From IMG/VR virus record IMGVR_UViG_3300042866_000695, positions 1-22,580 of that record: a DNA stretch of 22,580 nucleotides. One strand, 5' to 3'. Source of the stretch: a virus. A program made the translations under genes and the position numbers. Each line of letters begins with the position of its first letter. The first letter of the stretch is position 1. Below are positions 4,072 to 11,192 of this stretch, one piece after another. The notes beneath the pieces are model-generated. The model was not told the DNA's origin. It worked only from the letters and a program-made list of their open reading frames with translations, and made no database searches.

Positions 4072-6171
4072 TCAACCTTTCCGATACCGCGTGCACTCGA
4101 ACCCAGCGGCGGCCAGCGGGATGCCCTTCGCCCACACTGGTGGGTGCGCCATCATCTTCGCCAGGCCTTTGCAGTCGAACTGGCGCGGGTCGTCTGGTGT
4201 CTCGGTGATCAGCTCGTCGTGCACGGAGAGCACGATCTCGTAACCGCAGGCCTCGATCAGCGGCATGCTGCTGGCCATCACGTCGCGCGCGAAGGCCTGG
4301 GTGCAGTTCTCGATGATCTTGCCGCCGTAGGTTTTGATGGCGCCCCATTGCCTTGTGTACTGGTTGACTCCGAAATACGAAATCTGCCCGTTGTCGTCGA
4401 CCTTCGGGTTGATGTAGCAGAGGTATCGCCCAGAGGGCAGGCGGATGCGCAGCCACGCACCATCGCGGCGGGCCTTGAGGTGCTCGCCGATGGCGAAGGT
4501 CTCACCCGGGTGCGCGATCGCAGCGCGCACGCTCTCACCCGCTGCGTGCCACAGCGCGGTGGTGTGTGGGTGCGCGTCGCGCCAGGCGCGCTTGAGCACC
4601 TCGCAGGCGACGTACACATCCTGCGGCAGGCCGAGCGTGCGCTTCTTGCCAGTCGCCCACTTCCACACGCCAAGGGCATCCTCGAGCGCTTCGCGTGAGG
4701 CCGTGTCCCACACCGCCTTCGCCAGCTCCTGCAGGTCCATGTTGTAGACCGCGGCGAAGGTCAGGAACGCCGCGACGCCGCCCTCGTACCCGAGACCGAG
4801 CTCCATCACCTTGCCGATCTGGCGCTTCTGCCCGACCGCCTCCTTGGGGTCGATGTTGAACGACCGGCCGTAGGCGACCTTGTAAAGGTCCTCGCCGGTG
4901 CCAGCGTCGAAGTCGGCGAAGGCCTTGAGCTTCCATCGCTCACCGGCCAGGAAGGCCAGCCCCCGGCCTTCGATGTTGGAGAGGTCGGCCACCACCAGCT
5001 TCTTGCCGGGCGGGGCCGCGATGCAGCCGCGGATCGCGTTGGCCGTCTGCTGCATCACGTTGGTGTAGACCAGGTCGGCGCAGCCGGTCTTGAGCGCCTC
5101 GACCACCAGGTCCTGCGCGGCCTCGTCGAAGCCGGGCTCAGGCCTGGGCAGGTTCTGAGGCTGGAAGATCCGACCGGCCCACCGCGCCGTGCGCTGCGCG
5201 CCGGCGAACTGCAGGGTGTTGCGCAGGCGGCCGTCGGCGCTGGTCGCATTGACCAGGGCCTTGTACTTGGCGGTGCTGGTCTTGGTGGCCTCCAGTCGGA
5301 TCGACAGCAGCAGCTTCACGCCCTCGGGCAGCTCGGGGTCCTCGAGCCGGCGGCGCAGCGTGTCGGCCTTCATGTCGGGCAGGTCGACACCGTACTCGGC
5401 CAGGATGAACGCCAACAGGTTGTCGCGCTGGCTGGCGTTGGTTACCAGGCCGTCGGTCTGGTCGGTGACCTCGGCCTTCAGTCGCTTTTGCTCACGCGCC
5501 ACCGCATCAATCGCTGCCCGCGCCAGGTCAATATCAACGGCGACCCCCCGATCGTTGATGCGCTGGTCAAGGTGCCAGAGCGCCAGCTCAGGATGACCAG
5601 TGCGGTAGTTCCAGCTCGGCAGGCGTTGGCCGATGGCCCGCATGGCGACGATGTCTTGTCTGGAATACTCGAGAAACTCGGACCACTCTTTGGGGTGTGA
5701 TTCACGGGTAGCCCTTCGCAGTGCGTGGCCCTTGGGCCGGGGTTTACAGAACAACTGGATCAGCTCGCGCCCGCGCTTGTCCTTCGCCTGGTCGGCCTCC
5801 AGTCCTACGATCTGGCCGATCTTATCCAGACCGCCTGGCAGGCCGTGCGCCATCGCCTGGATCATCGTGTCCTGCCAACGCTCCACGGGCACGTCGATGC
5901 CCCAGCAGTGGCGCAGCAACGTGCGGTCGAAGGCACTGTTGTGGGCGGCGATCAGGACGGTGGGGTCGAACTGTAACGCCGCGAACAGGTCGGCCGTAAG
6001 GTCTGGGCGCTCGCCTGCAGTGCAGTCCCACACTTGCGGTTCACCGTCGTCGATCGCCCACTGGGCCACGGTGATCTCGGTGCTGGGGTGCTCGGCGTAG
6101 CGGTGCGTGCCGTGCGCTTTGAGGTCGCACTCGCTGTAGGTCTCGCAGTCAAACCAGAGGGTGGTCATCAT
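4072..6171 (-). CDS. Family A DNA polymerase with 3'-5' exonuclease (phage PolA type)
   Basis: This 699-aa replicative polymerase has an N-terminal DEDDy exonuclease: D8-x-E10, HNSAFD at 77-82, and YSRQD at 169-173. The polymerase domain has motif A VADLSNIEGR (D396), motif B R450-x3-K454-x7-Y462 (RQIGKVMELGLGYEGG) and motif C VHDE (650-653). No 5' nuclease domain is present. The O-helix residue equal to E. coli Phe762 is Leu458, a variant reported as associated with temperate viruses. The start is ATGATG at 6171 or 6168, with GAAAG upstream. It is separated from the SSB-like gene by the structured 250-bp region, unlike the tightly packed genes elsewhere. Confidence 0.95.
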   Translation of the reverse strand: MMTTLWFDCETYSECDLKAHGTHRYAEHPSTEITVAQWAIDDGEPQVWDCTAGERPDLTADLFAALQFDPTVLIAAHNSAFDRTLLRHCWGIDVPVERWQDTMIQAMAHGLPGGLDKIGQIVGLEADQAKDKRGRELIQLFCKPRPKGHALRRATRESHPKEWSEFLEYSRQDIVAMRAIGQRLPSWNYRTGHPELALWHLDQRINDRGVAVDIDLARAAIDAVAREQKRLKAEVTDQTDGLVTNASQRDNLLAFILAEYGVDLPDMKADTLRRRLEDPELPEGVKLLLSIRLEATKTSTAKYKALVNATSADGRLRNTLQFAGAQRTARWAGRIFQPQNLPRPEPGFDEAAQDLVVEALKTGCADLVYTNVMQQTANAIRGCIAAPPGKKLVVADLSNIEGRGLAFLAGERWKLKAFADFDAGTGEDLYKVAYGRSFNIDPKEAVGQKRQIGKVMELGLGYEGGVAAFLTFAAVYNMDLQELAKAVWDTASREALEDALGVWKWATGKKRTLGLPQDVYVACEVLKRAWRDAHPHTTALWHAAGESVRAAIAHPGETFAIGEHLKARRDGAWLRIRLPSGRYLCYINPKVDDNGQISYFGVNQYTRQWGAIKTYGGKIIENCTQAFARDVMASSMPLIEACGYEIVLSVHDELITETPDDPRQFDCKGLAKMMAHPPVWAKGIPLAAAGFECTRYRKG

Positions 6172-6422
6172 CCATCTTTCAAAAAGGTCGCCCGTTCCGA
6201 GGAATGACCGCTTTCAGTTTCCAGCAGCACGGTCTGCTCAGTCGCGCCCCGGATAGCAGTACCGGGCGGGGGCGCGACATATTCCTCAGCGATGCGCAGG
6301 GTGGGTGAGTCCCGGCTAGGAGTTGCTGCTCCCGATGTTTGGTGAGGGGCCTGACTTCACAGGCAGCCCGGCGAACCAACCGGGGCCCTCACCAAACAGC
6401 CCCCTCGAGGGGGCCGCCTGGG
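6172..6422 (-). ncRNA. Structured gene-free region: two candidate three-way junctions
   Basis: This is a 251-bp gap inside an otherwise compact operon, packed with inverted repeats. Element 1: a 13-bp perfect stem (6336-6348 / 6386-6398) encloses two hairpins, 6349-6353/6360-6364 and 6367-6371/6380-6384, with only 0, 2 and 1 unpaired junction bases. Element 2: GAGGAAT/ATTCCTC (6199-6205 / 6281-6287) encloses GACCG/CGGTC (6206-6210 / 6230-6234) and a 10-bp stem GTCGCGCCCC/GGGGCGCGAC (6241-6250 / 6269-6278). A 16-bp palindrome (6399-6414) precedes both. It may be a structured RNA, a cis-regulatory leader of the polymerase gene, or a replication element. Confidence 0.5.
6399..6414 (-). terminator. 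GC-rich palindrome after the SSB-like gene, partial terminator candidate
   Basis: The perfect palindrome GCCCCCTCGAGGGGGC starts 9 bases after the stop codon of the ssDNA-binding protein gene. In the transcript direction it is followed by TGTTTGG, so the U-tract is weak. It could attenuate transcription into the polymerase gene or just protect the mRNA end. Confidence 0.4.
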
Positions 6423-6998
6423 TTACCATAAGTCGTCGGCGCTCGCGCCTTCGGTGACCTCGTCGAACTCGTCAGCATCGGCCGGGCGGCCAGCGCTGAA
6501 CGAGTCACCGTCGGCGTAGAACTGCACGCCGCGCAGGGTGCAGTTCACGCGCTTGCCGTACTGGTTGTCCTGCGCCCAGAACTCCAGCGAGGCGTTCACG
6601 TAGCACCCGGCATACGGGCGACCGCTCTTCATGGTCAGCGGCGTGCGGTCGCGGTCGATGACGGTCGGGGGCGCGTTCTCTTGGCTGTTGGCGCTCAGGA
6701 AGTAGTTGCCCGGGAACCCGTCGTACTGGGGCTTCGTGTCGCCGTCGTGCAGCGCGACCTTGTCGGTCTTGCGCAGGCCAGCCAGTACGGTGGCTGCCTT
6801 GTCCTTCCATTTGTCCTTGGCCACCGCGTCGATCTTGGCGTTGATCTCGGCGAGCTGGGGGTGATCAGCGCCGAGCAGCAGCGCGGCGCCGTAGCGGGGC
6901 TTGCCTTCGCCGGCCACGGTGGTGGGCTCGAACAGGGCGGGGAAGGACAGGCGTGCGTTCTTCAGGAGAATGCGGCCCAGGGGGGTAGGTGCGGTCAT
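6423..6998 (-). CDS. Enc34-type phage ssDNA-binding protein (DUF2815)
   Basis: This 191-aa protein matches DUF2815, the OB-fold ssDNA-binding family characterised in Enterobacter phage Enc34. Recognisable parts are the opening GRILLKNARLSFPALFEP, the core YGAALLLGADHP, the DRTPL...SGRPYAGCYVNASLEFWAQDN stretch, and an acidic C-terminal tail (DADEFDEVTEGASADDLW) like that of single-strand binding proteins that recruit partners. It coats ssDNA at the phage fork. AAAGG precedes the ATG. It lies between the DUF2800 nuclease and the polymerase, a frequently seen phage replication cassette. Confidence 0.92.
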   Translation of the reverse strand: MTAPTPLGRILLKNARLSFPALFEPTTVAGEGKPRYGAALLLGADHPQLAEINAKIDAVAKDKWKDKAATVLAGLRKTDKVALHDGDTKPQYDGFPGNYFLSANSQENAPPTVIDRDRTPLTMKSGRPYAGCYVNASLEFWAQDNQYGKRVNCTLRGVQFYADGDSFSAGRPADADEFDEVTEGASADDLW

Positions 6999-11006: not shown

Positions 11007-11192
11007 GCTGTCCGTGCGATGGGGCGCATAGGGCTGTACTGACTGCTACAATCTTAGGGCCAAACCGTTTCTGTCCCGCCATGGGTGGGGGTTCCGGCCC
11101 GTGGACAGCGGGTTGGTTTGGCGACTCCGGAACCTCCACCCATGGCGCTTTTGAAAGTCGCCAATGTTCAACGCTTCAACCGGAGACCGCAG
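11007..11192 (+). other. Leader of the primase-helicase gene with long hairpin
   Basis: A 186-bp gap. It holds an extended -10 (TGCTACAAT, 11045-11052... promoter G) and a very long inverted repeat: arms 11077-11097 and 11127-11147 pair over 21 bp with one G-T wobble and a 29-nt loop that contains CCCG/CGGG (11098-11101 / 11109-11112). An in-frame ATG at 11142 lies inside the 3' arm. No other gene is seen. Confidence 0.7.
11044..11052 (+). promoter_or_regulatory. Promoter G of the primase-helicase unit
   Basis: CTGCTACAAT contains the extended -10 TGC-TACAAT (hexamer 11047-11052), as in the leftward promoters, but its left half (TACTG) does not match the TAGCA palindrome arm. Transcription would start near 11059, just before the long hairpin. 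Confidence 0.45.

Follow-up and report, generated by a model that had tools for sequence, protein, structure and literature searches.

The virus record IMGVR_UViG_3300042866_000695 (22.6 kb; positions 1 to 22,580, referred to here as the window) carries its early genes, for an exonuclease, a single-stranded DNA-binding (SSB)/annealing protein, PolA and a helicase, on the minus strand, and the first three of these make up the minus-strand replication operon of a BPP-1/BcepC6B-like phage. The gene for the DUF2815-type SSB/annealing protein (6423..6998, minus; phrog_112, E = 4.7e-49) ends at 6423 and that for the PolA-type DNA polymerase (4072..6171, minus; phrog_17, E = 6.5e-118) starts at 6171, leaving a gap of 251 nt at 6172-6422. 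Judged by the polymerase (~53-56% identity), the nearest cultured relatives include Bordetella phage BPP-1 and Burkholderia phage BcepC6B. The gap contains two separate things, a pseudoknotted RNA termed RNA-1, which lies downstream of ssb and upstream of the polymerase gene (pol), and a long hairpin termed the A-element. A first-pass annotation had described the region as gene-free and filled with ordered stems, and the palindrome, the 13-bp stem and the 10-bp GC stem on which that description drew are all found where it placed them. A coding reading was rejected, because the gap offers a single mechanical open reading frame (ORF), of 66 aa with a TTG start, and the compensatory changes in the stems better fit RNA.

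The folding energy of the gap is just moderately unusual. Shuffled sequences of the same composition, which the first-pass annotation had named as a possible refutation if they folded equally well, did so in 6/200 cases for the minus strand (z = -2.2) and in 4/200 for the plus strand (z = -2.5), a moderate excess of stability that is too weak as proof. Because the energy is barely better than that of shuffles, the matter was settled by comparison with relatives, and this comparative evidence is decisive.

RNA-1 is ~150 nt long and occupies 6176..6339 on the minus strand, that is, the mRNA strand, reading from 6339 to 6176 (cmsearch envelope; models R1 and R2, 49 members). The window scores 129 bits with R1 and 118 bits with R2, its row being part of the training set. 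The order of elements is 5'-P5a-P1a-HPA(loop = P3a)-P2a-P4(loop = P5b)-P6a-P1b-P6b-P2b-P3b-U-rich-SD-AUG, where SD is a Shine-Dalgarno-like sequence. Comparison among the members shows P2, P4 and P6 to constitute, at the level of predicted secondary structure, a true three-way junction; the second multibranch element of the first-pass annotation was thus correctly perceived, while its pseudoknots, and the minus strand as the structured one, had escaped that annotation. P2, the closing helix (6197..6289), consists of CTGAGGAAT (6289-6281) and ATTCCTCGG (6205-6197), with 88.8% of cells paired and 8/9 pairs covarying. The P4 hairpin (6241..6278) has the 10-bp GC stem GTCGCGCCCC/GGGGCGCGAC (6278-6269/6250-6241), and the P6 hairpin (6206..6234) has the stem GACCG/CGGTC, in which 6/6 pairs are changed on both sides.

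By the same comparison, the contiguous 5' strand P5a plus P1a pairs into the loops of both junction hairpins. CGGG of P5 (6331..6334) forms a predicted pseudoknot with CCCG in the P4 loop (96.7% paired among the 49 members), and AGCAGCA of P1 (6324..6330) forms another with TGCTGCT at 6229-6223 in the P6 loop (7/7 pairs changed on both sides). The 3' tail is likewise shown by comparison to pair, in the predicted fold, with the loop of the HPA hairpin: HPA itself (6296..6316; GCCGGG/CCCTGC, 96.4% paired, 6/6 pairs covarying) presents ACTCACCCA in its loop as the 5' strand of P3, and the tail supplies GGGCGA (6188..6193) as the 3' strand (76.5% paired, 5/6 pairs covarying), with one A-C mismatch in the window's own P3. 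Directly ahead of the polymerase start comes the U-rich spacer CCTTTTTGAAAG (6176..6187), which takes in the SD-like GAAAG. All of these features lie on the minus strand. In one branch of the members, unpaired stretches at the junction, GCUA and UGCGCAAAC, are conserved as well (49-member alignment A4).

Evidence for this structure comes from homologous ssb-pol junctions taken from dozens of phages found by polymerase and SSB searches; a homologous core is present in most junctions of close relatives. When the structure of a single member (L012) is applied to 13 cores aligned simply with MAFFT, 85.8% of cells are paired, against 64.1% after shuffling and 34-50% with partners slid, and 120 double changes stand against 42, supporting six helices. 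In the 49-member alignment, 82.9% of cells are paired (57.5% shuffled, 34-46% slid), with 554 double changes against 186 in shuffled alignments, and all seven helices are supported. Covariation, whose absence together with that of conserved stems would in the first-pass annotation have spoken against a structured RNA, amounts to 0.560, compared with 0.166 after shuffling and at most 0.108 after sliding.

For 29 rows that were used neither in proposing the structure nor in building R2, each helix beats all of 5000 partner permutations (0/5000), a test that leaves relatedness among rows in place. The paired fractions, observed against permuted, are 82.2% and 55.0% for P1, 97.4% and 70.1% for HPA, 75.6% and 44.2% for P4, and 74.4% and 61.6% for P3. 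P6 gives 68.9% against 53.4%; its register was chosen on the full alignment A4, including the 29 rows, so that this value is not independent of the choice of register, although P6 was not used to make A4. For P5, at 97.0% against 92.0% (0/5000), covariation is the weakest of all helices because the helix is nearly invariant. A hand-made segmentation agrees but was selected for pairing, and more trust is due to the MAFFT and out-of-sample tests. Among well-supported pairs, chosen by Watson-Crick content only, 74 are G.U and 23 are A.C (0/500 shuffles), and the minus (mRNA) strand is therefore the structured one. Out of sample, compensatory changes surpass both kinds of control, shuffled and slid; by this measure RNA-1 is a genuine conserved structured RNA, and the proposal of a new phage structured RNA is borne out for this element by conserved stems and strong covariation in relatives.

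The 49 members (models R1 and R2, E <= 0.05) come from phages and prophages whose hosts are Burkholderiales and other Proteobacteria. Carriers include prophages of Castellaniella, Vreelandella, Cupriavidus, Achromobacter, Paraburkholderia, Burkholderia, Caballeronia and Propionivibrio, further prophages in metagenome-assembled genomes (MAGs) assigned to Ramlibacter, Gallionellaceae and Sphingomonadales, and the cultured phage BcepC6B, in which RNA-1 was located via the polymerase and the RNA model. The annotated start of BcepC6B gp37 (L063 2166-2246) overlaps RNA-1, and its true start is probably downstream, near 2247. Three loci titled Vreelandella, Clostridia and Aeriscardovia (L143, L155, L156) have identical RNA-1 coordinates, score and polymerase match, and the Clostridia and Aeriscardovia assignments of these MAGs are probably binning errors. 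Searches of whole records gave one clear copy per genome. A scan of genome contigs with an alignment query yielded 80 loci and the same scan with a single protein query none; under strict filters, 399 Burkholderiales and 399 Pseudomonadota genomes returned the known carriers and no additional ones. Compared as DNA with 50,697 phage records, the window region gave no match, and a DNA pattern scan of viral contigs hit unrelated sites only.

At the gathering cut-off of Rfam 15, a check that the first-pass annotation had proposed, neither the window nor ten relatives matched any family; a relaxed search gave matches at chance level only for the window gap (best E = 1.2) and none for L113. No description of an RNA like RNA-1 was found in the open-access papers searched. 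As far as Rfam 15 and the open-access literature reach, RNA-1 constitutes a structured-RNA family not described before, predicted from sequence comparison, in the mRNA of BPP-1/BcepC6B-like phages. A group I topology was rejected by helix order. RNA-1 resembles the hepatitis delta virus (HDV)-like ribozymes in that P1 crosses P2 and a hairpin lies between the 5' strand of P2 and the 3' strand of P1. It differs from them in the extra hairpin HPA between P1a and P2a, in P5a 5' of P1 pairing into the P4 loop, in the placement of P1b in the P6 hairpin loop, and in the 3'-tail pseudoknot. An HDV-like ribozyme, with its nested double pseudoknot P1-P2-P3-P1.1-P4 starting at the cleavage site, was rejected on this different helix order and the lack of an Rfam match.

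Small elements ahead of their own gene, the pseudoknot in the mRNA of T4 gene 32 (SSB) and the translational operator of T4 gene 43 (polymerase), provide a parallel in which phage replication genes are controlled by structured RNA at the ribosome-binding site, with a pseudoknot in the case of gene 32. Unlike these, RNA-1 is ~150 nt long with three pseudoknots, is placed between ssb and pol, and can be followed by other genes as well; an autoregulatory leader of ssb of the gene 32 type was rejected because RNA-1 is downstream of ssb, not in its 5' leader. The SAM-II and preQ1 riboswitches share the compact pseudoknotted fold with a loop-to-3'-tail helix adjoining the ribosome-binding site, whereas RNA-1 has a different topology, no Rfam match and several unrelated downstream genes. 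Phage HK022 likewise has RNAs of an early operon, the put antiterminators, which are simple stem-loops close to early promoters and make RNA polymerase ignore terminators; RNA-1 is larger, has crossing helices and lies mid-operon. Other phage-borne structured RNAs known from comparative genomics are the manA, wcaG and PhotoRC-II motifs of cyanophages and the c4 antisense RNA (PMC2864571), from which RNA-1 differs in genes, in hosts and in matching no family of Rfam, which includes several of these.

The other component of the gap, the A-element (6336..6398, minus), consists of a 13-bp stem, TGTTTGGTGAGGG/CCCTCACCAAACA at 6398-6386/6348-6336, around a variable interior. The first-pass annotation had read it as a three-way junction enclosing two hairpins. 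Two hairpins, of 6 and 5 bp, are indeed enclosed in the window, but the branches are not conserved: the window and L028 have two, L009 and L060 have one, and L011 has three, so that the element is better described as a long hairpin whose stem alone is kept. Equivalents lie on either side of RNA-1 (L004, L008, L009, L011, L016, L018, L021, L025, L027, L028, L060 and BPP-1). The stem (TTTGGTGAGG..CCTCACCAAA) is retained while the interiors are unrelated and are exchanged wholesale between close relatives; L005 and L006 are 94-98% identical over long matching stretches outside the A-element, yet differ in its interior. A single mobile repeat was rejected because the interiors are unrelated. Pairing of GGTGAG in the A-element stem with CTCACC in the HPA loop is perfect in the window, but the stem fails to follow changes of the HPA loop in L004, L008, L018, L027 and L028, and the complementarity was attributed to chance. 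The A-element often directly follows a terminator-like hairpin or the U-run of RNA-1. In the window it is preceded by the 16-nt palindrome GCCCCCTCGAGGGGGC (6399..6414, minus), a terminator-like hairpin followed by TGTTTGG, and similar hairpins precede it in L004, L008, L018, L027, L028 and L060.

Wherever a record contains both genes, RNA-1 lies between ssb and pol. From its last helix (P3b) to the next start codon the median distance is 24 nt over the 49 loci, whatever gene comes next; it is 9-44 nt in 37/49 members, the others mostly having a long hairpin interposed. The spacer is AU-rich (GC 0.43, compared with 0.63 for the loci). The gene 3' of RNA-1 is a polymerase, a NUMOD4/HNH-type endonuclease, a DNA methyltransferase or a small ORF (names read from the sequences rather than from a family search), and the upstream neighbor varies too. 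Because both neighbors vary, RNA-1 appears to be tied to its place in the operon and to the ribosome-binding site, not to any single gene. For genes of these kinds the ssb-pol junction is an insertion hot spot. By eye, the inserted ORFs are NUMOD4/HNH-like in L004, L018, L020 and L026, HNH-like in L105, L106 and L113, and methyltransferase-like in L008, L181 and L210; they sit after RNA-1 where it is present (L026 has none).

A second pseudoknotted leader RNA, RNA-2 (11057-11166, plus), precedes the primase gene and comes immediately after an extended -10-like TGCTACAAT. It is composed of a long stem with an inner hairpin, the loop of which pairs with the 5' flank. Its GGTTTGGCGACT has two alternative partners, the 5' GCCAAACC and the 3' AGTCGCC, in helices that are mutually exclusive, and since AGTCGCC overlaps the GAAAG SD and its spacer, one helix covers the SD. 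All four helices are backed by complementary changes in 13 hand-segmented sequences. An ORF of 9-11 codons follows, mostly overlapping the primase start (10 codons and overlapping in the window). RNA-2 occurs in 13 phages, including L009 and L025, which both lack RNA-1, and the two RNAs are unrelated; by analogy its presence makes RNA-based control in these phages more plausible and is not evidence on RNA-1 itself. Separately, a region after DUF2815 in Acinetobacter phage 4316 (L065 3540-3665) shows hairpin-loop complementarities and might be another pseudoknotted RNA.

The leading, though tentative, reading is that this new structured-RNA family acts as a cis-acting intercistronic switch on the polymerase side of the operon, the cis role being suggested by its position. 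In the fully folded RNA, P3 would close the molecule up to the next gene's ribosome-binding site, over a distance of no more than roughly one 30S footprint; by default this gene would be that of the DNA polymerase. Several relatives that lack RNA-1 (L009, L025, L032, L026 and BPP-1) have a terminator-like hairpin at this junction, so that gene expression is plausibly interrupted there. A phage protein, a metabolite or a passing ribosome might melt or stabilize P3, and its state would then set the polymerase-side output of the operon relative to SSB. A riboswitch would have a conserved aptamer upstream of an expression platform; in RNA-1 the conserved core ends a median of 24 nt ahead of a start codon. 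Several observations weigh against this reading. No helix of RNA-1 was seen to cover the SD, and the short spacing to the start codon may be a side effect of the tight gene packing in these phages. In about half of the members an ORF other than polymerase directly follows, which is not what a polymerase-specific leader would show; because the next gene is often not polymerase, a polymerase-specific role is not required, and the cis-regulator of polymerase envisaged in the first-pass annotation is plausible as an inference. Finally, RNA-1 is absent from the close relatives L009, L010, L011, L025, L032 and L035, and is dispensable because several close relatives do without it.

It is unlikely, though worth weighing, that RNA-1 is a transcription attenuator, in which P3 and the U-run would stop RNA polymerase unless the fold is altered, or an antiterminator giving read-through as do the HK022 put RNAs. 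A U-run follows P3b in the window and in many members, and a GC hairpin with a T-run lies just after RNA-1 in L013, L014 and L028. The terminator-like hairpins in relatives without RNA-1 also fit this reading. However, the U-run is absent in L063, L094, L168, L169 and L178, and P3 plus the T-run is not a hairpin, a loop-tail pseudoknot being no canonical terminator. The terminator pattern scan of the window found the palindrome alone (6412-6400; 1 site vs 0.5 expected by chance) and nothing at the 3' end of RNA-1.

Excision or termination of RNA-1 as a separate small RNA, acting in trans on host or phage factors, is rather improbable. It would agree with a compact, independent unit that is present in one copy per genome and persists while both neighboring genes change, but the operon, strand and place are constant, the spacing to the next ribosome-binding site is tight, and the window scan found no promoter near RNA-1. 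Somewhat less probable again is a nuclease shield, in which RNA-1, along with the long hairpin next to it, would guard the mRNA or mark processing sites and so balance SSB and polymerase mRNA; the folds are very stable and the long hairpin is often stacked beside RNA-1, yet simple hairpins would suffice, and conserved crossing helices exceed the needs of a block. The compact fold in which several helices cross, as is typical for small ribozymes, and the conserved unpaired junction stretches of one branch would suit a self-cleaving or otherwise catalytic RNA separating the ssb and pol messages, but with no Rfam ribozyme match and a topology unlike that of the HDV-like ribozymes, this is very improbable. 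Least credible is a function as DNA (a cruciform, single-stranded origin, recombination or packaging site): the region does sit among replication genes and the long inverted repeat of the A-element has an exchangeable interior, but for RNA-1, as distinct from the A-element, the retention of G.U pairs on one strand, at numbers far above A.C, and crossing pairing that is unlikely in extruded duplex DNA disfavor the branched-DNA replication element once proposed.

Beyond the intercistronic switch, it is conceivable, if doubtful, that RNA-1 represents a regulatory or catalytic RNA class not known before and with its own fold, the 5' strand linking the loops of the two arms of the three-way junction and the tail locking onto a third hairpin, and that it forms with RNA-2 an RNA circuit timing replication. 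A phage RNA family with three pseudoknots, distributed among phages and prophages of many Proteobacteria, is a concrete target for work on structure and function. If RNA-1 binds a ligand or cleaves itself, it would be a new riboswitch or ribozyme, and if it is true that it regulates replication genes, it would show a temperate phage balancing SSB and polymerase at the RNA level.
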